NCBI GenBank assembly: GCA_944372455.1
Contig: CALVZF010000006.1
Location: 1 to 46,954, forward strand
Length of the DNA stretch: 46,954 nt
Direction of reading: 5' to 3'
Source: an uncultured Bacilli bacterium
Lineage (GTDB): Bacteria > Bacillota_I > Bacilli_A > RF39 > UBA660
Under the pieces are notes generated by a model. That model saw only the letters and a list, made by a program, of their open reading frames with translations, was not told where the DNA came from and did not search any database. How positions within the stretch are numbered: the stretch's first letter is position 1; each line of letters starts with the position of its first letter. Shown here one piece after another: positions 12,072 to 25,322 of this stretch. The position numbers were made by a program, and so were the translations under genes.

Positions 12072-12860
12072 TTATATAGATGACATCATTTGAAGCATTG
12101 CTACTAGTAATAATACAATTACACCAGCACCTGTAACGCCAAGCATAATCATAGTTTTACTTTGCATTTTTTCAAGTCTTTCTTTATATTTTTGTTCACG
12201 AGCTTTATTTTGTAAATTAGATACAGTTTTAGATAATAACAATAATTGTTCTTCTTTATTTTCTTGTAAACCTAATCCTAAACGATAAAGTAATCTCATC
12301 ATTCGCATTGAGTCTCTAACAGGATAAGCTTTAGCAAATTCCATATATGGATCAATTGAAGAATCTCCCTCATTAATTTTTTGCATTAATTCATTAAGAC
12401 CTGGTTTAAAAATAGCAGGAGCATCGTCTATTGATTTTTGAATTGCTACAGGAACTGTATAATATTGAATTAAAACTTCTAAAGATTTTAAGTAATAAGG
12501 TAATAATAAATCAATATCATGTAAATGTTTTTTATAATAATTTTTTAAATTACGATAACCACTTTTAAATACAAAAGCTGCTACAATAATTGAAATTAAA
12601 ATATTTAAAAAGTTTATATTAGTAATAAAGAATAACATCATAATAGCAAAAATAATTACTGAATTTTTAAGCCTTTTATTAAAAAGTAAATCAGGGTCAA
12701 CTTTTTCACCATATTTTGCTCTTACTAAGAAATCATAATCACTTTCTTTTAAAGTTTTAAAATATACTGTATTATCTTGAAAAAACTGTTTACTGTCAAT
12801 AAAACCATTAACTGAAAAAATTACAAAAACTATTACAATAATAATTAAAATTTCCCACAT
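12072..12860 (-). CDS. tadC: TadC-like platform protein (T2SSF domain)
   Basis: 262 aa. Hydrophobic helices lie at about 1-18, 70-88, 90-105 and 238-258. Between them is a helical cytoplasmic domain (about 115-230) with the T2SSF pattern (DLLLPYYLKSLEVLIQ and MMRLLYRLGLGLQ). TadC pairs with TadB as the inner-membrane platform of Tad pili, coupling the CpaF motor to pilin movement. Its start overlaps the tadB stop by one base (TAATG), so translation is coupled. Confidence 0.85.
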   Translation of the reverse strand: MWEILIIIVIVFVIFSVNGFIDSKQFFQDNTVYFKTLKESDYDFLVRAKYGEKVDPDLLFNKRLKNSVIIFAIMMLFFITNINFLNILISIIVAAFVFKSGYRNLKNYYKKHLHDIDLLLPYYLKSLEVLIQYYTVPVAIQKSIDDAPAIFKPGLNELMQKINEGDSSIDPYMEFAKAYPVRDSMRMMRLLYRLGLGLQENKEEQLLLLSKTVSNLQNKAREQKYKERLEKMQSKTMIMLGVTGAGVIVLLLVAMLQMMSSI

Positions 12861-13762
12861 TATTCTCCACCTACATTCTCATTATAATATTTTTCTCCAT
12901 TAAGTAGAAAATAACTATTAGCGATTAAAACGGCATGAAGTGTTAATTGTACATACCATAATTCAATCATTTTTAAATATGCATCTACTCCTAATAACAA
13001 TTGTAAAACTGCTACTAAAAAGTATAACATCAAACCATAAGTTAAAAATTGTTTATGAAATTGATCTCTATCTAATCTATCACGATATACTCCTTCAACA
13101 AGAGTGTCTATATCTAATGACATATTATCTAATGATCCTGTAACATCTCTTGCCCCTTCTTTAGTAACTTGTAAGAATAGTTGATGCATATTTCTAACTA
13201 TATGATAAGGATATTTTTGATTCATAAAATCTATTGAACCATCAATTTGTCCATTTTCATAAGCCATATCTAACATTGTTTTAACATCACTTGCAACAGG
13301 ATCTTCTAATACTCCAGAGTTATAAACTCCTTCTAAAGCTTTTACAAATGATTTAGTAGTTTGATATTCCATAATAACGTTTGTTGTATAAACTTGTATT
13401 TGTTCAAAGATAAACTCACTATATATTCTTTTATATCTTATATAAGTAATATAAGGAATCGCACTAACTGCAATTAATGCATAAATAATACTCCAAATAA
13501 TACTATAAAAATATAAATATGAAATAACAGAAGCTAACCCTGCAAAAATAATAATTTGCGTAATATATTGTTTTTTAGTATAATCTTGTTTTAAATCTTT
13601 AACTTTTTCTCTTATAACTTTATATGAATAAGGAGCTATTTTATCATAAACTGTACCTATTTGTTGGGATATGAATTTGTAGACATTTTCACCTTTTTTT
13701 CTTCTATAACTTATTATAAAAATTGCTATAAAGGTAATAATTAAAAATATAATAAATGTCAT
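12860..13762 (-). CDS. tadB: TadB-like platform protein (T2SSF domain)
   Basis: 300 aa. TM helices lie at about 2-18, 70-88, 90-106, 243-262 and 270-290. The T2SSF helical domain (about 115-240) includes MEYQTTKSFVKALE and MHQLFLQVTKEGARD. AAGGCGGTGA precedes the ATG. It lies directly after cpaF and before tadC in the standard Tad order. Confidence 0.85.
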   Translation of the reverse strand: MTFIIFLIITFIAIFIISYRRKKGENVYKFISQQIGTVYDKIAPYSYKVIREKVKDLKQDYTKKQYITQIIIFAGLASVISYLYFYSIIWSIIYALIAVSAIPYITYIRYKRIYSEFIFEQIQVYTTNVIMEYQTTKSFVKALEGVYNSGVLEDPVASDVKTMLDMAYENGQIDGSIDFMNQKYPYHIVRNMHQLFLQVTKEGARDVTGSLDNMSLDIDTLVEGVYRDRLDRDQFHKQFLTYGLMLYFLVAVLQLLLGVDAYLKMIELWYVQLTLHAVLIANSYFLLNGEKYYNENVGGE

Positions 13763-13774
13763 AAATTCACCGCC

Positions 13775-14920
13775 TTACATATTTATTTCTTCAATCTCTT
13801 CTATTTCCTCAATCTCATTACTACTTATATTATTATTTTGATTATTAATTGTTTGACTATTTTCATTTACCATAACTTCTTTTGAAAGAGAAATACCTTG
13901 TGCATCTAAATATCCTATTAAATATTTAGAAGGATTTCTTCTAGTAATTCTTCCATCTGAAGTTTTTCTATAAATTTCATTATGTTGAGGTTTATTATCT
14001 TCATCAACGTAAAATTCTGTTACTTCTACAATTTCTCTTTGGAAACGTCCATATTGTTTGGAATAATAACCTCTTATATGAACTCCTAACTGTACATATC
14101 TATGTATTGTTGCTAAAAACTGAGTTATATCTATATTAGATTCAAGTAAGCTATACATTCTGGTAGGAATTGATACTGCTTTATCTGCATGTATAGTTGA
14201 TAATATATTATGTCCAGAAGATATTGAATTACGAACTGCCATAACTGCTTCTGCGCTTCTTACTTCCGATAATAGTATCCATTTAGGATTTTGTCTCATA
14301 CAAGTTACTAATACATCAGAATAAGAAGCTATATTATTAGTTTTCATAGCTACTATATCCCTATGTGGAAATATTCTATCTAAATGTAATTCTAGAGTAT
14401 CTTCAATAGTAATAATTTTTTCATTTTCTAAAGTATGTGCAGCTAAGTATTTAACAAATTCTGTTTTACCAGAACCAGTTTCTCCACTTACTATAATATT
14501 ACAGTGTCCAATTACACATTGGATTAATAAATCATGAATATCTAAAGTAACATAATTTTCATTTAACAATTTATTTTTTTCAAGTCTTATTTTAGCTGGT
14601 GTCTTTCTTAAAACTGCAGCTATTCCATTTCTAGCAATTGATTCGTGTATGAAGTTTAAACGTAATTCTTCACCTTCTGCATCTAGAAAAGGATTAGCCA
14701 TATTAAATGTTTTACCCATTGCATTTGAACATTGAAAGGCAATTTTTTCCATCAATTCATTGTTTATTGATGGTTCTTCTACACGATATACCCCTTGGGA
14801 TAAAGATTTAACCCAAACTTGCCCATTATTACTGTACGAAATATCTGTGATATTATCATCATCTAGATATTTTTTTAAAGGTCCAAAGTCAATATGGGAA
14901 AAAATATTGTCATTTTCCAT
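13775..14920 (-). CDS. cpaF: CpaF/TadA-type secretion ATPase (VirB11 superfamily)
   Basis: 381 aa. Walker A GETGSGKT (146-153), the Asp box TIEDTLEL (171-178), the Walker B region WILLSEVRSAEA (E219, R221) and the His box HNILSTIHADKA (H237, H244) are all present, so it should be an active hexameric ATPase. CpaF/TadA drives pilus assembly through TadB/TadC. The same superfamily contains VirB11, so this protein could also serve the T4SS half of the locus, which has no other VirB11. The C-terminus has a short acidic repeat (EEIEEIEEI). Its start overlaps the cpaB stop by one base (TAATG). Confidence 0.93.
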   Translation of the reverse strand: MENDNIFSHIDFGPLKKYLDDDNITDISYSNNGQVWVKSLSQGVYRVEEPSINNELMEKIAFQCSNAMGKTFNMANPFLDAEGEELRLNFIHESIARNGIAAVLRKTPAKIRLEKNKLLNENYVTLDIHDLLIQCVIGHCNIIVSGETGSGKTEFVKYLAAHTLENEKIITIEDTLELHLDRIFPHRDIVAMKTNNIASYSDVLVTCMRQNPKWILLSEVRSAEAVMAVRNSISSGHNILSTIHADKAVSIPTRMYSLLESNIDITQFLATIHRYVQLGVHIRGYYSKQYGRFQREIVEVTEFYVDEDNKPQHNEIYRKTSDGRITRRNPSKYLIGYLDAQGISLSKEVMVNENSQTINNQNNNISSNEIEEIEEIEEINM

Positions 14921-15789
14921 TATTCAGTTGTTTGAATATCTGGGGTATTATCATCTGGAAGTTGATCTTCAGGTACATCTATAGTTTTAGATTCTATAAA
15001 GTTTCTTAAATAACTACTTGTAATTTCAACAGTTCCTTCATAGTCTTCATCACTTACTGATTCTGTAACTGGAACAGGTATTAATTCCACTGCATTTGAA
15101 GATAGATAATTAGCTTTTCTAAGTAACAAATGTAAATCCTCATCTACACTAAATATAAAAGTTGTAGGAGTTCTATTTTCTTCTGTATTTTCAAATACAT
15201 CTCTACCACTTGCATCTAAAACTGCCAAAACTTTAACATTTTGAACTAATTTTCCAATCATAGCTTTTCCATCATCATTATTAGCTTTCATATATATATC
15301 AACATACATTCCATCCATTATTGCATTGCCATATGTATCACTATAATTAATTGAGAAAGCATATGGAACTTGTCCTTTATCAATTTTTAATAAAACTGAT
15401 GAAGGAATTTTAGAACGTTCTACTACATTTGTTCCTCTAATAAGTGGAGTCCCTTTTGGGATTAATGAATTAACATTTGCATAGGCTCCATCAGCAAAGG
15501 AATCTAGTTCTGCACTACCTCTTAATACTGTTGTTCCATTACCATATTCACCAATCATTTTGTCATACATTACACGAGCGATACTTACTGTTTCTACCAT
15601 ATCACTTGTAATTTTTGTTCTAGGTTGAATATCTTGTTTAGCAACTAAAACAGAAACTTGTTCTACTTGTTGATTGACTCTCCAATTATATCCAAAATAT
15701 AAAACAACTATTCCAACTAAAACTCCCAAAATTGTTACTGTATTTTTGTTTGTAAAAAATCTTTTTAATGTTGTAGCAAAGTTATTCAT
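14920..15789 (-). CDS. cpaB: CpaB/RcpC-like Tad assembly protein with SAF domain
   Basis: Start chosen at the ATG (MNNFATTLKRFF) with AGGAGG 8 nt upstream; an in-frame ATG 30 nt earlier has no ribosome site. About 289 aa: basic N-terminus, TM helix (about 18-36), then a SAF domain (VLVAKQDIQPRTKITSDMVE) and an RcpC/CpaB-type beta-rich domain. CpaB proteins are extracytoplasmic, possibly wall-contacting, parts of Tad systems. First gene of the cpaB-cpaF-tadB-tadC operon, with its own extended -10 promoter. Confidence 0.85.
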   Translation of the reverse strand: MNNFATTLKRFFTNKNTVTILGVLVGIVVLYFGYNWRVNQQVEQVSVLVAKQDIQPRTKITSDMVETVSIARVMYDKMIGEYGNGTTVLRGSAELDSFADGAYANVNSLIPKGTPLIRGTNVVERSKIPSSVLLKIDKGQVPYAFSINYSDTYGNAIMDGMYVDIYMKANNDDGKAMIGKLVQNVKVLAVLDASGRDVFENTEENRTPTTFIFSVDEDLHLLLRKANYLSSNAVELIPVPVTESVSDEDYEGTVEITSSYLRNFIESKTIDVPEDQLPDDNTPDIQTTE

Positions 15790-15817
15790 AAATAGTCCTC
15801 CTATCTTAATATAATAC

Positions 15818-15826
15818 ATTATAACA
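15818..15826 (-). promoter_or_regulatory. Extended -10 promoter of the cpaB-cpaF-tadB-tadC operon
   Basis: TGTTATAAT on the minus strand within TTATGTTATAATGTATTA, the same string as upstream of the 290-aa pilin gene. No clear -35. Confidence 0.6.
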
Positions 15827-15890: not shown

Positions 15891-16289
15891 TTAATTTTGT
15901 GTTTCTAAAATTGCATTAATCCTATTAGTAATATTAAATTGCTCCCCAGTAAAATTAAAAACAGTAGATTTAGAATCCACACTAATACTTACTTTCGGTG
16001 GTTGTTCTACTACATCGTGAATTTTAATGTTATATGTTTTATTTAAACTTGCACTTTCTGCATAACGTCTTATAAAATTTTCAGTAAATTTTTCTTTGTT
16101 TATTGCTACTATTCCTGTTTGTCTATAATAGGCTAAATCAACAGATTCTAACATAGCAGATTCTGTTATTTCCTTTGTTAGATAATAATTTTGGTCATTA
16201 GTAGTTGTGATATCTCTAAATAAAAATAATACTGTCAATGTAAAAATTCCAAGTATAATTATAAGATATCCCAAAAAACTTTCTTTCAT
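15891..16289 (-). CDS. 132-aa pseudopilin-like protein, cassette 1
   Basis: Begins MKESFLG, then one hydrophobic helix (about 8-25) and a roughly 105-residue extracellular domain with the conserved segments KEKFTENF, RRYAESASLNKTY and PPKVS. It is a close paralog of the gene at 19940-20338. The tiny charged leader ending in Gly followed by a TM helix is the layout of the TadE-like and pilin-like genes in this locus, so a pseudopilin or minor-pilin role is plausible. It follows the giant Cys-rich gene by 20 nt and ends the three-gene cassette. Confidence 0.65.
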   Translation of the reverse strand: MKESFLGYLIIILGIFTLTVLFLFRDITTTNDQNYYLTKEITESAMLESVDLAYYRQTGIVAINKEKFTENFIRRYAESASLNKTYNIKIHDVVEQPPKVSISVDSKSTVFNFTGEQFNITNRINAILETQN

Positions 16290-16309
16290 TAAATCACATC
16301 CATTACTTC

Positions 16310-18034
16310 TTAAAATTCTCCAATTTTTGCACTTCTATTATCTTTAATATTTTCACCAAATGTTAATTCTAACCAATCTTCATCTAAAAAACTACTGATC
16401 GAGTCTAATTTATTATAAACATTTGAAACCATTCCATCCCATCCATATCCTTTGTTAGATTGATTTTGTAGTTTGTTATAGTTTTTAATTTGACTAATTT
16501 TACTATTATCCAATTTTATTTCATACATGATTTTTTGATAAATATTTTCATTATTATTTGTAATATATTTTTGTACTTTAGTTTCACTTGAATTAAATAC
16601 ATTGTCTTTCCAATTTAAACCTGGTTCTCTATTTGGAAAAGGATTATTTAATGATATCTGTCTAAAATAGTAATTATTTGTACAATAGTTGTTATTATCA
16701 AAACACTCTTTTTCTTTTTTTCTATTATCAAGCACTCCATATTGGCAGCTAAAACCATTATTTGTGCTTGAAAGTTTTCCTGTTAATCCACTATTTTCAA
16801 TAGTAATATAAAAATCATAAATTCCAGTAGTTGTATTTAACTCTGTATAAAATTTATTTCCACCATCTAAATATTCTTTTTTTGTTTCAGTAGTTATATT
16901 AGTTGCAATTTTAGCATTTTGTTTGGCAATATATTTTTGCTCTAATGTTAAATTATAATTGTAAGTATATACTACTTTTGTATTAATTCTTGTTGTTATA
17001 TAATGTTCATCACCTCTATTTAAATATTTAATTGTAAAATCCACTGGATTACTATATTGAGTATTAGGATCATTAATATTTTCATTTACTAATACATACT
17101 TAGTACTTTGATTAGATGATTTCCCAGTAAATATAAAAGGATTATTAATAAGACTAGATTTTAAATTTATTTTATCAGTTTCAATATTTCTATTTATTTG
17201 ATCAGCAATTAATAAATTTACTTTTCTAGTAGCAGTTTCATAAGTTAGATTCCCTTCATTTGTTAAATCTATTGTTTTACTGCCAATATATAAACTTATA
17301 ACTTCGTGTTTAACTCCTATATCATATTCAAATCCTGTACCTGATATCACTATATTTTCTTGTTGTTTCATTTCATTTAAAGTTTTGTAATCAGTTAAAT
17401 AGACGTTTTCTAAAGTTTGGATATTTGAATTAGTTATTCCATTATCTGTTCCTGCAAAAGGGGTATTATTTGGAGGAGAGTCTTTGCAAGACAAATTATC
17501 TTTCCAAGTATCTTGTGGAATACCTTTACAACTTTCAGTATTTTTATATTCATTTAATTCACAACAACAGTTTTTATTATTCTCAAAATAACTTGATATG
17601 TTACAACTATTATGTTCTATACTGCAACTTATTTGGCATCTTTCGTTATATTCACTATTAGGATTTTGTATACAACACTCTGAAGGTTGATTGTTATTAT
17701 AATCCCAGTAAAATTCTTCTTCGTTGGTACAAATAGGGGCTTCACAATATCTATCAATTAAGTTTTGAAAATCAGGATTATCCCTAAAAGTATAATAAGT
17801 ATTTAAATAAAAAGTTTTAGGAGGTACTAAGGAATCATATGTTATCTTATTTTGACTAAGACAACAATTTTGATATTGCCACATTGAAGGATTGTAATAA
17901 TTTTTCTGATGTTCTAAATTCCCGCAACACATTTCGGGATAATAAGATCCATTTTCTAGATCAGACCTATTACAACATATATCTGGATGATTATATGTAT
18001 ATTCTGGATCTTTGCAAGGATCTTTTTTTTTCAA
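16310..18034 (-). CDS. Giant Cys-Cys-rich surface protein, C-terminal part (frame-shifted from 351-aa part)
   Basis: 574 codons counted from a TTG at the A9 tract; it is probably not an independent gene. Residues 6-170 contain five Cys-Cys clusters in spaced modules (DPCKDPEY, HPDICC, YYPEMCCGN). A beta-rich region and the conserved C-terminal motif NPFPNREPG follow, ending KIGEF. The whole matches residues 277-877 of the intact paralog at 20352-22985. Deleting one A from the tract joins it in frame to the upstream 351-aa gene (EKK then DPCKDP) to give about 911 aa. Secreted and probably disulfide-bonded; adhesin or pilus-tip role is inference. Confidence 0.7.
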   Translation of the reverse strand: MKKKDPCKDPEYTYNHPDICCNRSDLENGSYYPEMCCGNLEHQKNYYNPSMWQYQNCCLSQNKITYDSLVPPKTFYLNTYYTFRDNPDFQNLIDRYCEAPICTNEEEFYWDYNNNQPSECCIQNPNSEYNERCQISCSIEHNSCNISSYFENNKNCCCELNEYKNTESCKGIPQDTWKDNLSCKDSPPNNTPFAGTDNGITNSNIQTLENVYLTDYKTLNEMKQQENIVISGTGFEYDIGVKHEVISLYIGSKTIDLTNEGNLTYETATRKVNLLIADQINRNIETDKINLKSSLINNPFIFTGKSSNQSTKYVLVNENINDPNTQYSNPVDFTIKYLNRGDEHYITTRINTKVVYTYNYNLTLEQKYIAKQNAKIATNITTETKKEYLDGGNKFYTELNTTTGIYDFYITIENSGLTGKLSSTNNGFSCQYGVLDNRKKEKECFDNNNYCTNNYYFRQISLNNPFPNREPGLNWKDNVFNSSETKVQKYITNNNENIYQKIMYEIKLDNSKISQIKNYNKLQNQSNKGYGWDGMVSNVYNKLDSISSFLDEDWLELTFGENIKDNRSAKIGEF

Positions 18035-19046
18035 TTAATAAATATGCATCACCATAGGGAACTACCCATTCAGAAGCCGCCCAAGCTGTACTAAGACTTC
18101 CTAAATGAAAATTACATCCTCCACTTAAACACTTATATTTACCATCTAATACTAACTGATATCCTGAATAGCTGACATTTGAATCTTTAGATCTTTTACT
18201 ATAAATATGCTCCCATACTTCTATACTAGTTTGATCATCATATGGTTTAGAAATCATATTTTTTTTATATTGATTAACCTTATAAATTTCATTATCAATA
18301 AAAATAGCTCGTCCAATACTTTGGAGATTTTCAAATCCGTTTGCTAAAACAGTTTTTTCCTGTAATCTACCATCTGAAGCTGCCATTAAAACATTATCTG
18401 TCAAATTTGAAACCTTTAAATTACTAGATTCTAAATTGGTGCAGTTTCCTTTATAAATATATAGCGGATTTGGAACACTTTCTTTATAGGTACCATTTAT
18501 ATTTCCATTATTATCTACATTAGGAACTTCTATTTCCATTTCTATTCTATATTTACCACTTTCTAGAGTATCCAAATTATCAAAGTTAACTTCAAAATCT
18601 ACATTATCATAAAAATATTGACCTCTATTTTGATATTGTACAAATTGATCATAGTCATTTGCATATCTACTACAATTAATATTGTTAGTACAATTTTTAC
18701 CATAAGCTCTTTGGGTACCACTTTTTACATATATAGATTCAGTTAAACTAAATCCAGAATTTCCTTCATAGTGATACTTAACATATCTAGAAACAGGAGT
18801 ATCGGAAGCAATTTTATTAGTTCCCTCTTTTATTAAATAAAAGTGATATGTTGGAGAAAATAAATAATCTCCATTTAAAGTATTTCTACCATTATGTCTT
18901 TTTCTTATTCTTCCCCATCCGGATAAAGATATATTATTATCTTGAACGTTTAAACTTGTAATATCATAAGTAATTTGTGCAAAAACATCTAATTTAAATA
19001 TTAAAAAACTAAATACTAAACAAAAAAGTAGGCAAATTTTTTTCAT
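17991..19046 (-). CDS. Giant Cys-Cys-rich surface protein, N-terminal part (351 aa)
   Basis: Signal peptide (about 1-23, ending VFA), then a beta-rich ectodomain with scattered Cys, corresponding to residues 1-275 of the 877-aa paralog. The reading frame leaves the homologous path after EKK at the A9 tract; the last ten residues (RSLQRSRIYI) are out of frame and the ORF stops 44 nt into the next frame. It overlaps the upstream 228-aa gene by ATGA, exactly as in cassette 2. Either a broken gene, a homopolymer sequencing error, or a product made by slippage. Confidence 0.7.
   Translation of the reverse strand: MKKICLLFCLVFSFLIFKLDVFAQITYDITSLNVQDNNISLSGWGRIRKRHNGRNTLNGDYLFSPTYHFYLIKEGTNKIASDTPVSRYVKYHYEGNSGFSLTESIYVKSGTQRAYGKNCTNNINCSRYANDYDQFVQYQNRGQYFYDNVDFEVNFDNLDTLESGKYRIEMEIEVPNVDNNGNINGTYKESVPNPLYIYKGNCTNLESSNLKVSNLTDNVLMAASDGRLQEKTVLANGFENLQSIGRAIFIDNEIYKVNQYKKNMISKPYDDQTSIEVWEHIYSKRSKDSNVSYSGYQLVLDGKYKCLSGGCNFHLGSLSTAWAASEWVVPYGDAYLLIEKKRSLQRSRIYI
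18023..18031 (-). other. A9 tract: frameshift or slippage site
   Basis: Nine consecutive T on the plus strand (A9 in the mRNA) at the point where two frames of one homologous protein meet. Eight A would restore one continuous frame. Runs of this length are known to promote RNA-polymerase slippage, and also cause sequencing errors. Confidence 0.75.
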
Positions 19047-19729
19047 ATTTGAACCTTCTTTCTCTTCTTAATTATTAAGATTAAAAGGATTATCAATATT
19101 AATAAAATTAAAATTATTAAAATAAAGTATTGTTTTAGAAACTCTATAAATTGATTATCATTATTTTTTAAAGTTTTAGAATTAGTAATTTCTTGTAAAT
19201 ATTTTTCTACATAATTTTTAAACTCTTTTTCGGTTAATTTTTGGTAAATAAACTTTTGACAATATTTATAATCTTCTATTCCTTTACATAATTCATTATT
19301 ACTAAACTCATTATAGTATGGCAAATTTAAGGTTTTAGTTTTTATAAGTTGATTAGGACATGAAGAATTTTCACTTGCTTTAATTTCTAATTTGATTAAA
19401 GTTCCTCCTAAAAGGTTTTCACCATCAATTATTTGATTATCTGCATAAAAATATAATTTTGAAGAATCAGTATTATAGATATATAATTCTTTTTCTAAAT
19501 TATATATTTGAAGTTTAAAAATATTATCATTTATATGTTTATAATTGATTTGAATATTATTTGCTTTTTGTAATAAACTGTTGTATTCTTCTTTAGAACA
19601 ATTATTAGTTTCTAAAGCTATCATATTAGAATTAATGTTATTAGAGTTTTGTTTATTGTTTTTAAACGTAAATACTAAAATTAAGCATATTATAAGTGCT
19701 ATTAAAATAAATTTACTTCTATATATCAT
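19043..19729 (-). CDS. Type-I membrane surface protein, cassette 1 (228 aa)
   Basis: N-terminal signal/anchor helix (about 7-23), ectodomain with four Cys, a C-terminal TM helix (about 198-219) and a basic tail (KKRKK). It shares the spaced motif YNEFSNNELCK ... DYKYC with the 208-aa and 204-aa proteins of this locus. GGAGAG precedes the ATG. It overlaps the giant Cys-rich gene by 4 nt, suggesting equimolar production and direct interaction. Possibly a membrane anchor or chaperone for that partner (inference). Not a family I can name. Confidence 0.7.
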   Translation of the reverse strand: MIYRSKFILIALIICLILVFTFKNNKQNSNNINSNMIALETNNCSKEEYNSLLQKANNIQINYKHINDNIFKLQIYNLEKELYIYNTDSSKLYFYADNQIIDGENLLGGTLIKLEIKASENSSCPNQLIKTKTLNLPYYNEFSNNELCKGIEDYKYCQKFIYQKLTEKEFKNYVEKYLQEITNSKTLKNNDNQFIEFLKQYFILIILILLILIILLILIIKKRKKVQI

Positions 19730-19778
19730 TACTATTCTCTCCTATATTTTTCACAATTATATTTTTAATATACCATAT

Positions 19779-19794
19779 ACCCCCCCGGGTCAAG
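19779..19794. promoter_or_regulatory. GC tract with ACCC...GGGT symmetry at cassette 1 promoter
   Basis: Seven C followed by three G (19780-19789) inside otherwise AT-only DNA, forming ACCC-CCCC-GGGT. It lies about 50-65 bp upstream of the 228-aa gene. On the minus strand the sequence reads TTGACCCGGGGGGGTATA, so a -35-like TTGACC overlaps it. It recalls CsoR-type copper-repressor sites, but no regulator gene is present here, so the assignment is tentative. Confidence 0.4.
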
Positions 19795-19903
19795 AAATTT
19801 AATTAACATATAATGTTTTACTATATGTATATTTACTATTATTTATTATTTTTAATTTTTGTTATTTATCAATAATGTATAATAATTTTCTGGTTTCTAA
19901 TAG

Positions 19904-19937
19904 AAAACAAGCTGGATAGTTTTCTATCCAGCTTGTT
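19904..19937 (-). terminator. Strong terminator after cassette 2
   Basis: Fourteen-pair perfect stem (19906-19919 with 19924-19937), 4-nt loop, then TTCTATT on the minus strand. It sits 2 nt beyond the stop codon of the second 132-aa gene and separates the two cassettes. Confidence 0.85.
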
Positions 19938-19939
19938 AA

Positions 19940-20338
19940 TTAACTTCTAGTTTCTAAAATAGCATCAATTTTATTTGAAATATTAAACTGTTCTCCGGTG
20001 AATGTAAATACATTAGATTTAGAATCTACACTAAGACTTACCTTCGGAGGGGTTTCTACAATATCATATATTTTAATATCATAGGTTTTATTTAAACTTG
20101 CACTTTCTGCATAACGTCTTACGAAATTTTCAGTAAATTTTTCTTTATCAATCGCAATTTCTCCTGTTACTTTATAGTACGGAATGTCAATTGCATCAAG
20201 CATTGATGCTTCTGTTATTTCCTTTACTAAATAATAATTTTGATCATTAGTATTAGTTACATCTTGAAATAATAAAATTACAGTTAAAGTAAATACTCCT
20301 AATATAATTATTAAATAGCCCCAAAAAGATTCTTTCAT
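19940..20338 (-). CDS. 132-aa pseudopilin-like protein, cassette 2
   Basis: Paralog of the gene at 15891-16289, same length. MKESFWG leader, TM helix (about 8-25), then the conserved extracellular segments KEKFTENFVRRYAESASLNK and PPKVSLSVDSKS. A ribosome site of the form AAAGGATGTGAT precedes the ATG. It starts 13 nt after the giant 877-aa gene. Conservation is strongest in the middle of the ectodomain, suggesting a shared binding surface. Confidence 0.65.
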   Translation of the reverse strand: MKESFWGYLIIILGVFTLTVILLFQDVTNTNDQNYYLVKEITEASMLDAIDIPYYKVTGEIAIDKEKFTENFVRRYAESASLNKTYDIKIYDIVETPPKVSLSVDSKSNVFTFTGEQFNISNKIDAILETRS

Positions 20339-20351
20339 TTAATCACATCCT

Positions 20352-22985
20352 TTACTGAAAATCTGTTGTTATAAAATCACCTATTTTTTTATGCCTTACA
20401 TTATCTAAATTTGGCAAACTTATTTCATCACTACTTAAGACTGGTAAACTTCCGCAATTTCTTCTATTTGCAGCACCACTTAAACAGTTTAAAAAGTTAC
20501 TATCTCTTGAAAACTCATTAAAAGTCATTGTATTCATAGTAGACCAATCAGCATAACCACTACTATTTTTATTGTATCTTTGAATTTCAGAAATTGTAGA
20601 AGAAGTAAGTTTTATATGATACATCGGATTACTATAAACATTATCTCCTTTTTCGGTAATGTATGTAGCTACTTTAGTATTACTAGAATTTAATGCATTT
20701 CCTTGCCAATTTGAGCCAGGTTCCCTATTTGGAAATGGATTACTTAAAGAGATTTGTCTAAAATAATTTGGCGTATCACTTTCAGATACTTCTCCATCAC
20801 ATTGTCCTTCTTTTAAGCAATTTGATAATTTATATTGACAAGTAATACCAGAACCACTTGTATTAATTTCACCACTTATTCCTCCATTTTTAATTTCTAT
20901 TGAGAATGGATAATAACCAGATTTGGAAGAAATACTTGTATAAACTAATCTACCACCTTCTACATATTCGTCATCATTATTTTTAGAATTGTAAGTTCCA
21001 CTATCTGTACCATTTGTTTTTATATAATACATCGGTGGAGTAATTGTATATTTATAAGTGATACTAGAAGATACAGGTATATCACGGTATTCTATTGTTC
21101 CATAAATTATTCTGCCATCCCTATCAGTTCCTGAAACATATCTATATGGATAGCTATTCTTAGATGTAGATAGATTTGTTACATAATTATTGTTAATTAT
21201 TTTATTATTTACATTTTTTAAATTTGTTAAATCATATTTAAATAAAGTATCATTTGAAACTTTAAAGCTTATAGTTTGTTGACTTAAACGTTTTTCTGTG
21301 TACTTATCAAGCATTTCGTCATATTTTCGTTTATAATTAGTTACAGTATTTTCTAAATCATTACGATTATAAAATATAGTATTTGTGTCAGGTGGATTTC
21401 CTTGTATAGTTAATGTTTCTGTAATTGATAAGTTATATTCAAAACCTCTACCGGCTTCTACACTTCTAATAGAACTATTATTAGTTTTATTTGCTAAATC
21501 AACTTTCATTGTATTAGTTACAGTTACACCATTTTCATTTTTAGAAAATGTTAATTCAGTTGGAAATTCTTGGCAAACTAACCCGCTAGATTGTTCTACT
21601 TTATTTTCACATACTGCATTCCATGTAGAAGTATTTATATGACCTTCTGTTGCAGCACAGCATGCCATTGAGTTATTTTGAAAAAATGTACTATTTGGAT
21701 TTCCACAACATTCAACGGTATGGTTGTAAAAATAGATGGGATCACTGCATACATTATCAGTAATACACCTTGGATCTTCTCTATATTCATCTTCATAACA
21801 ACAATAATTTTGATCTTCTGGATTCCAACTACAAGTATTATTACATACACGATTTATAAAGTCATCATTAAAAAATGAATCTCTACTTTTATAATATCTA
21901 AATAATTTTAAAGTTGCCAACCCTTCTCTAACAAAATATTCTTCACTATTTGTACAACAAGTATCTTTTATATTCCAGGAAGAATTATATAAATCAAATT
22001 TGTAAGCATTACTTTCTGTTCTAGTAATCAAGTCATTTATTATTTCTTTATTTCCGCAACAAGTTTCTGGATAATAAAGTGTTTCATTATCATATCTTTC
22101 TTTTGTACAACATACTTCTGGATGTTCATAAGCATAAGCTTGTTCCTTACATGGGTCGTAATTTTCATTTTCGCTTCTAAAAATTGCTACAAAAGGTACT
22201 AAATAATGATAAGCTCTAACATTTCTATGTAATTCTGGTCTTCTTCCGGGTACTCCAAGTCCAGTTATATCTCCTGGATCATTAGCAATGAGCTCATCAA
22301 TAGTAACTTTATATGAAAATTCGTTTCTAGCACTATCTAATGTTCCCGGTTCAATTTTTAATTTATTATCATTAACTTTATATTTATAAATGCTTTCACG
22401 TGCTTGATCGTTTTTAAAAGCTTCTTTTGCATACGAGCTATTCATAATATCATAAGTACTAACTGATATTAAGGTAAGATTTTTTTTTCCAATCAAAGAA
22501 TTTGGAATATTCGTAGTTGTACTATAAGTTAAATCCATTCCAGGACAAACACGTATGTCTAAGGCATCTCCAACTATCCAATTTCTAGGATTATTTTCAT
22601 CTGTCCAAGTGTCTACTGTTCCAGTATCATAGAAATAATAATAAGTGTATTTAGCATTGCCATCATTTACTGTTTCTTCAGGACTAATATATGGATCATC
22701 ACCAGGATTAATTAGTTTGTTGCTTGTCCTAGTAACAAGACCACCTGTTGTATAGCCCAAATATTCTCCTACACATCTATACATACCACCTATTCTAACT
22801 GTATCATTATTATTACAGTTTGTAACGTGTTGGCTTTTATTGGCACCATATATGGTACCATACGCGCTATTAATACATCTAGTGTTAGAATAAACATTCC
22901 AATTCTCTGCAGCAAATATTGTTTTTGGAAATAATAAAAGCATAAAAATAAATAATAAACTTACACCCAAGTTTTTTTTCATCAT
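20352..22985 (-). CDS. Giant Cys-Cys-rich secreted surface protein (877 aa, intact)
   Basis: Signal peptide (about 2-25, ending IFA). Residues 26-270 are a beta-rich N-terminal domain. Residues 278-475 hold six Cys-Cys pairs in spaced modules (DPCKEQ, HPEVCC, YYPETCCGN, DTCC, YCC, ECCGN, ACC). Residues 490-870 are a large beta-rich domain with the motif SLSNPFPNREPG (746-757), ending with KIGDF. No TM helix after the signal peptide, so it must be held by partners. The start overlaps the 208-aa gene by ATGA. A pilus-tip adhesin or secreted effector of the adjacent Tad/T4SS machine is the leading guess. I do not recognise a named family. Confidence 0.75.
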   Translation of the reverse strand: MMKKNLGVSLLFIFMLLLFPKTIFAAENWNVYSNTRCINSAYGTIYGANKSQHVTNCNNNDTVRIGGMYRCVGEYLGYTTGGLVTRTSNKLINPGDDPYISPEETVNDGNAKYTYYYFYDTGTVDTWTDENNPRNWIVGDALDIRVCPGMDLTYSTTTNIPNSLIGKKNLTLISVSTYDIMNSSYAKEAFKNDQARESIYKYKVNDNKLKIEPGTLDSARNEFSYKVTIDELIANDPGDITGLGVPGRRPELHRNVRAYHYLVPFVAIFRSENENYDPCKEQAYAYEHPEVCCTKERYDNETLYYPETCCGNKEIINDLITRTESNAYKFDLYNSSWNIKDTCCTNSEEYFVREGLATLKLFRYYKSRDSFFNDDFINRVCNNTCSWNPEDQNYCCYEDEYREDPRCITDNVCSDPIYFYNHTVECCGNPNSTFFQNNSMACCAATEGHINTSTWNAVCENKVEQSSGLVCQEFPTELTFSKNENGVTVTNTMKVDLANKTNNSSIRSVEAGRGFEYNLSITETLTIQGNPPDTNTIFYNRNDLENTVTNYKRKYDEMLDKYTEKRLSQQTISFKVSNDTLFKYDLTNLKNVNNKIINNNYVTNLSTSKNSYPYRYVSGTDRDGRIIYGTIEYRDIPVSSSITYKYTITPPMYYIKTNGTDSGTYNSKNNDDEYVEGGRLVYTSISSKSGYYPFSIEIKNGGISGEINTSGSGITCQYKLSNCLKEGQCDGEVSESDTPNYFRQISLSNPFPNREPGSNWQGNALNSSNTKVATYITEKGDNVYSNPMYHIKLTSSTISEIQRYNKNSSGYADWSTMNTMTFNEFSRDSNFLNCLSGAANRRNCGSLPVLSSDEISLPNLDNVRHKKIGDFITTDFQ

Positions 22986-23608
22986 AACACCTTCTTTTTT
23001 TTCTTCTTAACTACAATAACTATAACAATTAATAAAATTAATAATACAATAGGAATAGAAATATATATAATTTTTTTAATATCAAAATCTTTAGTGTTCG
23101 TATCTTCTACAGTTTCAATATTGGCATTTTTATATTTTTCTAATTCGCTATAAAAAGTAGTATCATCTATGTTACCTTGGTACCATTTATTACATAACTT
23201 AAAATCCTTATAAGTATTACATTCTTCATTTTCTGAAAATTTATTATATTTAGGAACGTAGAAAGATTTATTAAAGTCTAATTCATATTCACAATCCTGG
23301 TTAATAGGTACAAAAGTAAATTTATAAGTTATACCTCCTATATAGTTTTCAAAAATTACTTCACCATTAGAATTTGGTATTGATAGCGATCCATCATTAC
23401 CTATTACTCCGATTTCGTTTGAAACATTGTATAAAGTAACTTTAAATAATTCAGTATTTTTATCATAATCATATTTAACTTTTATAGCATTGGTCAGATT
23501 ATACATTTTATTTGTTTGATTGGTATCACAAATTTCTTGTGCAAATATATTTTTAGGAAACAATAAAATTAATAGACTTACTAATAAGATTATATTTTTT
23601 TTAATCAT
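22982..23608 (-). CDS. Type-I membrane surface protein, cassette 2 (208 aa)
   Basis: Signal peptide ending IFA, an ectodomain with Cys and the motif YNKFSENEECNTYKDFKLC, a C-terminal TM helix (about 178-198) and a strongly basic tail of Lys. Paralog of the 228-aa and 204-aa genes. AGGTGAT precedes the ATG. It overlaps the 877-aa gene by 4 nt, the same junction as in cassette 1. Confidence 0.7.
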   Translation of the reverse strand: MIKKNIILLVSLLILLFPKNIFAQEICDTNQTNKMYNLTNAIKVKYDYDKNTELFKVTLYNVSNEIGVIGNDGSLSIPNSNGEVIFENYIGGITYKFTFVPINQDCEYELDFNKSFYVPKYNKFSENEECNTYKDFKLCNKWYQGNIDDTTFYSELEKYKNANIETVEDTNTKDFDIKKIIYISIPIVLLILLIVIVIVVKKKKKKVL

Positions 23609-23655: not shown

Positions 23656-23693
23656 TAAAAAAAAGTATTAAATGTTTAATTTTAATACTTTTT
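23656..23693 (-). terminator. Terminator of the VanY-like pseudoenzyme gene
   Basis: Thirteen-pair AT-rich stem (23660-23672 with 23681-23693), 8-nt loop, followed by T tract on the minus strand. The 5' arm overlaps the last codons of the gene. Confidence 0.65.
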
Positions 23694-25218
23694 CAACACT
23701 ATCCTGAGTAATAGTATAACCTGAATCATTTAAATATTTTGCATAATATTCTTCTAAACATAAATTTTGATCGTGAATTATTTTAGCTACTTCTTTTCCT
23801 ACATATCTATAATGTGCTGGATTATATCCCATCCTAGTTATATGCTCTTTTCCCTCTGGATATCGTAATACAAATCCATATTTGTAAGCATTGTCTTTAA
23901 GCCACGCAGTTTTTTCAAGCATGTATTCATATGTCCAAACACTATTATTAGCAATTTCTTCTGAAACATCTTTATAATTTTTATACTTATAATATTCAAA
24001 AAATTGATACCAGCTACTAGAAGAAACGGAAAAACTAAAACCTGTAGATAGATCACTATGCCAATATGGAAGATTATAATTAAAAGCAAACTTTTCGTAT
24101 TGTTTTTCTTCAGGAATAGAATTATAAGCCATTCTTCTTTCATATGATAAAATGTCAAGTGGACAGTTATTAGTTTCACCACCAAAAATGTTATAAGCTT
24201 CATCAGCTATGACATGATTATTAATTTCACCTGTAGCAATTGAAGCATCGCGTAATGCTTTAAAATTTTCATAAATTTCTGTTCTTATATATGGGGTAGT
24301 AGTAATTCCTTCAAATGCTGGACCATTTTGTATATACTCCATATTACAGTTAGTTAATTGTGAGATATCTATTTGATGATCTTTTGGCAAACGATGAAAT
24401 TTATTAACTAATACCAGTGGATCATTGATATTCTTAACTACTTTAATATCTTCTTTTTTTGGCTCAAAATGTTTTGTATTACTTTCTATTAAATCAAAAA
24501 GTACATTAGAAATTGAATTTCTTACCTCCTCTGATCCCTCATTAAAATATGGATTCATAGAAAAACTTTCTGGACCAACTTCTACTAATTCCAAATCTAA
24601 ATCCATATTAACATTAATAATAGAATCTTCAATACTTAATTCTGGATGACTACTAACATATTTACAATATCTATTAAAATTTTCTGGATTAAAGTTTTGG
24701 TTAGCGCTACGTTTTAATATTTCTTTAATTAGTTTATTAAATTCATTATTTTCCTCATACTTTTCAATAGTTACCTTTTGTTCTTTACCATTCCAATCTA
24801 CTTCAGCATTTAATAATTCTGATACCATTCTAACTGGAATTAAGGTTCTATCATTAATCATTTCAGATGATGCTCCAAAAGCTTTTTCTTTTCCATTTAC
24901 TATTGCAGTATTTGTTCCTATTGTATGAGTTATTATATCCCCATCCCTAGAAATACCTAGTATACTTTTATCTTGTGGATTATAGTATACCATTGTCCCC
25001 ATTGATTCAAATATAGCTCTAAATGGTACTAAAGTATTTCCATTTTTAATGATTGGTTTTTGATCAAATTCTATTTTTTGATCATTATAAGTTACTACTA
25101 TTTCTTGATTCTTTACTGAATCTTCTTTTGCTAGTACAACATTGGAACTTAATGTAGTTGCGATTGTTGCAGATAATAATATCGTTCCTCCTAATACTTT
25201 GAATTTTTTTAAATTCAT
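23668..25218 (-). CDS. Stalk-domain VanY-like pseudo-carboxypeptidase
   Basis: Start at the ATG of MNLKKFKVLGG, which follows GAGGAGAG; the frame is open further upstream but the promoter lies there. 516 aa. Signal peptide (ending VLA). Two copper-amine-oxidase-N-like (stalk) repeats at about 40-155, with NGNTLVPFRAIFE and NDRTLIPVRMVSE. The C-terminal half is M15B/VanY-like. Aligned with the VanY gene at 28803-29930, the zinc His and Asp of SEHxTGxxxD are Leu and Ser here (SDLSTGFSFS, 388-397), and the catalytic Glu of ExxH is Asn (NPAH, 466-469). Catalysis is therefore unlikely; a wall-binding or structural role is more plausible. Monocistronic, within the secretion locus. Confidence 0.85.
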   Translation of the reverse strand: MNLKKFKVLGGTILLSATIATTLSSNVVLAKEDSVKNQEIVVTYNDQKIEFDQKPIIKNGNTLVPFRAIFESMGTMVYYNPQDKSILGISRDGDIITHTIGTNTAIVNGKEKAFGASSEMINDRTLIPVRMVSELLNAEVDWNGKEQKVTIEKYEENNEFNKLIKEILKRSANQNFNPENFNRYCKYVSSHPELSIEDSIINVNMDLDLELVEVGPESFSMNPYFNEGSEEVRNSISNVLFDLIESNTKHFEPKKEDIKVVKNINDPLVLVNKFHRLPKDHQIDISQLTNCNMEYIQNGPAFEGITTTPYIRTEIYENFKALRDASIATGEINNHVIADEAYNIFGGETNNCPLDILSYERRMAYNSIPEEKQYEKFAFNYNLPYWHSDLSTGFSFSVSSSSWYQFFEYYKYKNYKDVSEEIANNSVWTYEYMLEKTAWLKDNAYKYGFVLRYPEGKEHITRMGYNPAHYRYVGKEVAKIIHDQNLCLEEYYAKYLNDSGYTITQDSVEKVLKLNI

Positions 25219-25322
25219 ATTTCTCTCTCCTCTTTTATTTGAAACGCAATTTTTCCATTTTTCAATGTTGATAATACTGCGACTAACTATGTGGAGGATT
25301 ATTATTGCTTTTTTCAACGCCT

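Follow-up and report, generated by a model that had tools for sequence, protein, structure and literature searches.

The stretch of DNA analyzed here (the window; 46,954 nucleotides from an uncultured Bacilli bacterium whose presumed gut-type nature is judged from its relatives) carries on its minus strand two consecutive cassettes, each made up of a protein of 208 or 228 aa that has a hydrophobic stretch at its C terminus, followed by a very large protein and then a DUF5411 protein. The neighboring cassette comprises the 208-aa protein (22982..23608), an intact large protein of 877 aa (20352..22985), which holds an A9 run of its own in frame at 22480-22488, and a DUF5411 protein (19940..20338; E 1.9e-53). 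The cassette of interest begins with the 228-aa protein (19043..19729), which has an additional N-terminal signal-like stretch and whose stop overlaps the start of the large gene, here split between two frames; this is followed by a DUF5411 protein (15891..16289; Pfam, E 6.6e-50), an RcpC/CpaB-like protein (14920..15819; E 3.4e-6, which is under the Pfam gathering score), and a CpaF-type T2SSE ATPase (13775..14920; E 4.2e-27), all on the minus strand. Two ORFs within 12072-13762 occupy the TadB/TadC position and have no Pfam hit. A terminator-like 14-pair stem lies between the two cassettes (19906..19937, minus strand) and is a weak feature, as two such sites were found against 2.2 expected by chance. 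Before the first cassette, at 23668-25317, we note a protein with copper-amine-oxidase-N and VanY domains; ORFs of ~500 aa that resemble it by eye occupy the same place in three cassettes of another genome of the genus, G001 (L066:2822-4339, L067:3133-4656, and L068:3081-4583), and in one of G002.

The arrangement of a 200-240-aa protein, a large protein, and a DUF5411 protein, which forms a tandem duplicate in the window (15891-23608), occurs three times in G001 (L066, L067, and L068), where no RcpC-like gene lies directly behind any of the three cassettes. A DUF5411 protein beside the large protein is an order common to G001, G002, G085, and one of the two G181 copies. The large proteins of the cassettes have unlike N-terminal heads and a common Cys-rich C-terminal part. 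The accessible text of one report (PMC9523054) describes a predicted CpaF/PilC/DUF5411 secretion or pilus operon in gut Clostridia. As in that operon, genes for a CpaF-type ATPase, DUF5411, and a large, predicted surface protein lie together in one operon in the window; unlike the operon as described there, the window has its cassettes in duplicate and a frame break in one of the large proteins. We liken the two operons by their ATPase and DUF5411 content, the large protein of the window standing against an internalin-like protein in the published operon. Neither half of the split gene was named by Pfam above the cut-off, a sequence search of solved structures gave nothing convincing, and structure predictions of the two halves were unusable (mean pLDDT of 37.9 and 42.9). 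The split gene is best explained as encoding a large protein that is secreted to the surface and belongs to a Tad-like pilus cassette; its product is predicted to lie at the surface by a signal-peptide-like start, recognized by eye, and by the pilus-cassette context, and its position, N terminus, and Cys-rich repeats suggest that it may act as a pilus-associated adhesin. In the open-licence PMC literature, we found one paper on DUF5411 and none joining Tad pili, phase variation, and homopolymers.

The split gene consists of an upstream frame of 351 aa (17991..19046, minus strand), with the signal-peptide-like N terminus and an N-terminal domain, and a downstream frame of 574 aa (16310..18034, minus strand), with the Cys-rich repeats and a C-terminal domain and without a signal peptide. 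The upstream frame ends in a TAA stop at 17991-17993 and the downstream frame opens at 18034, so that the two overlap at 17991-18034. Within this overlap, nine T residues read on the plus strand at 18023-18031 give an A9 run in the minus-strand message, and this is where the two frames meet. On re-reading, the coordinates of the tract and of both frames given in the initial annotation were confirmed, as was its arithmetic, by which eight A residues would give one continuous frame, the downstream frame being +1 relative to the upstream one. The tract lies at codon 339, rather than near the 5′ end of the gene, and the last ~10 codons of the 351-aa frame, past the tract, are out of register with homologs. 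Joining the frames requires the loss of one A or the gain of two, whereas with a single added A a stop follows within ~24 codons. The 574-aa frame has no convincing start, and a TTG is present in the overlap.

To establish whether the two frames belong together, the initial annotation had relied on the 877-aa paralog, along which both were said to align. This held for the 574-aa part, which matches the paralog from residue 277 (BLASTP E 6e-53), and failed for the 351-aa part, which has no likeness to it (BLASTP E 0.44). The claim that the two frames are one gene was instead borne out by G001, which encodes two 1039-aa proteins that are continuous across the exact junction (LIIEK|RNPC in G001 and LLIEK.../...KDPC in the split gene). 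The 351-aa part corresponds to the first ~328 residues of the 1039-aa protein, up to IEKK/IEKR (BLASTP E 1e-16; 30% identity in the alignment), and the 574-aa part matches the 1039-aa proteins from IEKRNPC onward (E 1e-33 and 1e-4). Judged by homology, the 351-aa and 574-aa frames are one gene because both halves match continuous proteins that read through this very spot. The G001 DNA at the junction is a G-interrupted A run in a single frame, and a pure A run at the junction is absent from the aligned relatives (the G001 copies). All seven relative copies that were read whole (three in G001, one in G002, two in G181, and one in G085) are single frames. The genus is represented in the comparison set by three genomes, with one genome per species. 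A family-wide search with the 574-aa part matched 27 of 291 genomes, the own genome included; among the 34 places listed, one (in G121) has an internal stop in the matched stretch, and many of these loci end before the gene start and are uninformative on the junction. Scanning genome contigs with the 351-aa part revealed no relative, and a profile scan of genome contigs gave four loci on three contigs of two MAGs. In a separate observation, a distant homolog of the large protein (L016, G260:C55) carries A8, A9, and A8 runs within one open frame.

The relatives also bear on translational routes to the downstream half, by ribosomal frameshifting or re-initiation. A hairpin lies 3′ of the tract (z of -2.69), and the TTG in the overlap could serve re-initiation. 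However, a -1 shift of the ribosome on the A run would lead into the wrong frame, with a stop within ~24 codons, and the hairpin was not found in the two relatives folded (z of 0.13 and 1.13); on both grounds we discarded it as a frameshift stimulator. The downstream piece, moreover, would emerge without a signal peptide. We consider such a route extremely unlikely.

Next, we compared the number of A runs with chance. In the window, runs of eight A occur at chance level (22 compared with 18.2 expected from dinucleotide shuffles) and A9 runs lie under chance (2 compared with 6.8). The genome as a whole holds 38 runs of exactly nine and eight longer ones. In a sample of 262 of its frames of at least 200 codons, with the expectation obtained by synonymous shuffling, we counted 11 A9 runs against 39.3 expected, one A10 run against 18.7, and no longer run against 14.6; the corresponding figures for 176 frames of G001 are 6 against 23.9, 1 against 14.1, and 0 against 13.0. 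We conclude that runs of at least nine A are strongly avoided in the genes of this genome. The part of PMC1088944 available to us likewise names nine as the length at which a large share of bacterial genomes show selection against A/T runs. We further note that all 16 of the A9 runs that lie in the interior of coding frames in this genome (G000) are runs of A, never of T, on the sense strand, and that no run of 10 or more lies inside a long frame.

Homopolymers are the commonest site of indel errors, and the sequence comes from a draft genome of 49 contigs. The tract could therefore have been given the wrong length by assembly or consensus calling, in which case the true gene would be intact. 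To weigh this, all 46 runs of at least nine in the genome were read with their flanks. Sixteen A9 runs sit at least 25 codons within a single open frame, and a Pfam scan of 10 of these 16 genes identified release factor 1, DNA polymerase III alpha, a methyltransferase, and a PSP1 protein among them. Two A9 runs sit at frame breaks, one in the split surface gene and one in L081 on contig C19, and the other 28 runs lie close to gene ends or outside long frames. General miscounting of runs in this assembly is unlikely because the 16 other A9 runs lie in single open frames. We then surveyed frame changes over 420,180 bases (the window plus 20 stretches of the genome, with 525 coding segments). A homopolymer lay in the overlap in 10 of 134 same-strand frame changes, and in two of these 10 cases, the split gene and L110, there was no start codon near the upstream stop. 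L110 was rejected as a second break, since a gap of 38 nt, as between ordinary neighboring genes, separates the upstream stop from the start of its downstream coding signal. The split gene is the sole overlapping frame change in the survey that combines a homopolymer of at least seven, the lack of a near start, and a coding signal running through the overlap, so the surveyed bases hold no other clean homopolymer break. In G001 (294,306 bases, 73 frame changes), none of the four homopolymer cases lacked a near start. An assembly error, which the initial annotation had listed among its explanations, is thus disfavored in its general form, which leaves room for an isolated consensus error; overall, we regard an erroneous tract length as improbable.

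Several further loci came to light in these surveys. Three candidate frame changes from the same survey (L108, L112, and L119) have no homopolymer. The gene at L081:1082-2168 (G000:C19) is a second one that changes frame at an A9 run, in the same sense, and it has a later stop as well; an intact homolog of 399 aa, L090, spans it in a match that changes frame at A9, and the relatives of the gene are single frames of ~360-430 aa. Because of the later stop besides the A9 break, this gene looks as if it were decaying. A serine-recombinase-like gene, named by eye (L036:1495-2777, G000:C1), apparently lies in two frames near 2298; it was rejected as an A9 break because the break is not at a homopolymer, its A9 run being a few codons past the start. 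Finally, an apparent enrichment of A9 runs in the pair of large genes (2 of 18 interior coding runs, both breaks included) is not strong, as the locus was chosen for one of the two and only the second counts.

The half of the split gene beyond its break carries no sign of decay. The 574-aa part retains 66 of 75 invariant columns and all 14 invariant Cys residues in an alignment of five homologs, two of them near-identical; the intact 877-aa paralog, when left out in turn, retains 66 of 85 invariant columns and 14 of 15 Cys residues. Under neutrality, each 1% of divergence would be expected to bring ~1.5 stops into the 574-aa half (149.9 for every substitution per site), and none was seen. Because the severed half is undecayed, the frame break is recent, reversible, rescued, or spurious. 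An intact severed half fits a consensus error as well as it fits a recent mutation, a phase switch, or rescue by slippage at the level of RNA.

Rescue of this last kind, with transcriptional slippage at A9 giving a mixture of truncated and full-length protein and the split being functional or tolerated, was another explanation in the initial annotation. Bacterial slippage sites are recognized at a length of nine A residues (PMC1088944, in the accessible part), and, in the excerpt of PMC4256274, Citrobacter rodentium tssM1 is rescued at 11 A residues with 20-25% frameshifting. The split gene resembles tssM1 and the Thermus dnaX and IS genes (PMC1088944) in that an early stop follows at least nine A residues and the gene occupies two frames. 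Unlike the window, tssM1 has RNA and protein evidence and the others have run conservation, going by the available portions of both reports. The junction of the split gene has a run of nine A; it shows neither run conservation nor joining by one added A, and the slip it needs is in the minority direction. The available text of PMC5574713 gives 151 of 157 insertions in Buchnera as lying in tracts compared with 16 of 57 deletions, and that of PMC6260861 puts insertions at at least twice the efficiency of deletions in lacZ mutants with 7-11 A residues. A programmed slippage site would be unlikely here because the A run is not conserved. Efficient rescue by RNA slippage is likewise unlikely because one added A runs into an early stop and insertions dominate slippage in A runs; deletions do occur. 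Slippage as a working means of expression therefore did not withstand comparison with the aligned relatives, which lack the tract, or the disfavored direction of joining, and we consider it very unlikely.

A further explanation is that the A run is a contingency tract kept by selection as an ON/OFF switch of a pilus-associated adhesin, with the assembly having caught the OFF state. As in phase-variable genes, the split gene has a coding homopolymer whose length sets the frame, and the frame changes exactly at A9. A very close precedent is found in Mycoplasma hominis, where, in the excerpt available of PMC524362, vaa is ON at eight A residues and OFF at seven or nine, with switching measured, and vmp-2 has an extra ninth A and an early stop. 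Like vaa and vmp-2, the split gene belongs to a small, AT-rich genome, encodes a surface protein (here a predicted one), and is put out of frame by nine A residues in its coding A run; unlike vaa as described there, where the tract is at the 5′ end and switching was measured, the window tract is at codon 339 and one allele is known. In the accessible part of a study of Listeria monocytogenes inlA (PMC2831843), a G-interrupted allele gave no revertants and pure A runs did. The split gene, with its predicted surface protein, resembles inlA in carrying a frame-breaking A-run indel, and the stable G-interrupted inlA allele parallels the G001 junction; unlike the window, inlA has its run at the 5′ end, the run is shorter (A6/A7), and that account includes data on strains and revertants. 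The surface-protein context, the presence of a second cassette whose large protein has a different N-terminal head, and the undecayed severed half all speak for a switch. Against it, relatives do not share the A run; A9 runs are found in housekeeping genes too and so are no hallmark of surface genes; the tract lies away from the 5′ end; and one tract length is known, from one assembly. We judge a selected switch to be rather unlikely; as it is a special case of a replication slip, this judgment covers the claim of a selected switch. With a similarly low probability, the A9 run might choose which cassette protein, the split one or the 877-aa paralog with its unlike head, is displayed.

Overall, we consider it probable, if far from certain, that a recent replication-slippage mutation at the A run has left an OFF or truncated allele, because homologs are continuous at the junction, long A runs are avoided, and the severed half is undecayed. 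Of the four options that the initial annotation listed without favoring any, a true mutation at a slippery homopolymer fits best. A replication slip within the A run would have given nine A residues and put the downstream ~570 codons out of frame, so that the cell would make the 351-aa N-terminal fragment only, ending ~10 codons past the tract. The same instability would make the break revertible, and the population may hold both forms. We infer replication slippage as the cause, along with the recency and revertibility of the break, while the A9 run is known from one draft assembly of the species. The event is ordinary in kind, such events being already known, and what is new is the gene affected.

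The analysis illustrates how in-genome controls, namely runs of equal length, relatives, and conservation of the severed half, allow a break at a homopolymer to be weighed in a draft genome. If A9 is fixed, the split gene would be an everyday case of gene loss of recent date. A polymorphic tract would let surface variation in an uncultured gut lineage be followed simply, at the level of reads, and the DUF5411 pilus cassette would join the phase-variable systems. Should the tract indeed be a switch, the DUF5411 pilus family of an uncultured gut Bacilli lineage would use phase variation in the manner of mycoplasmas.
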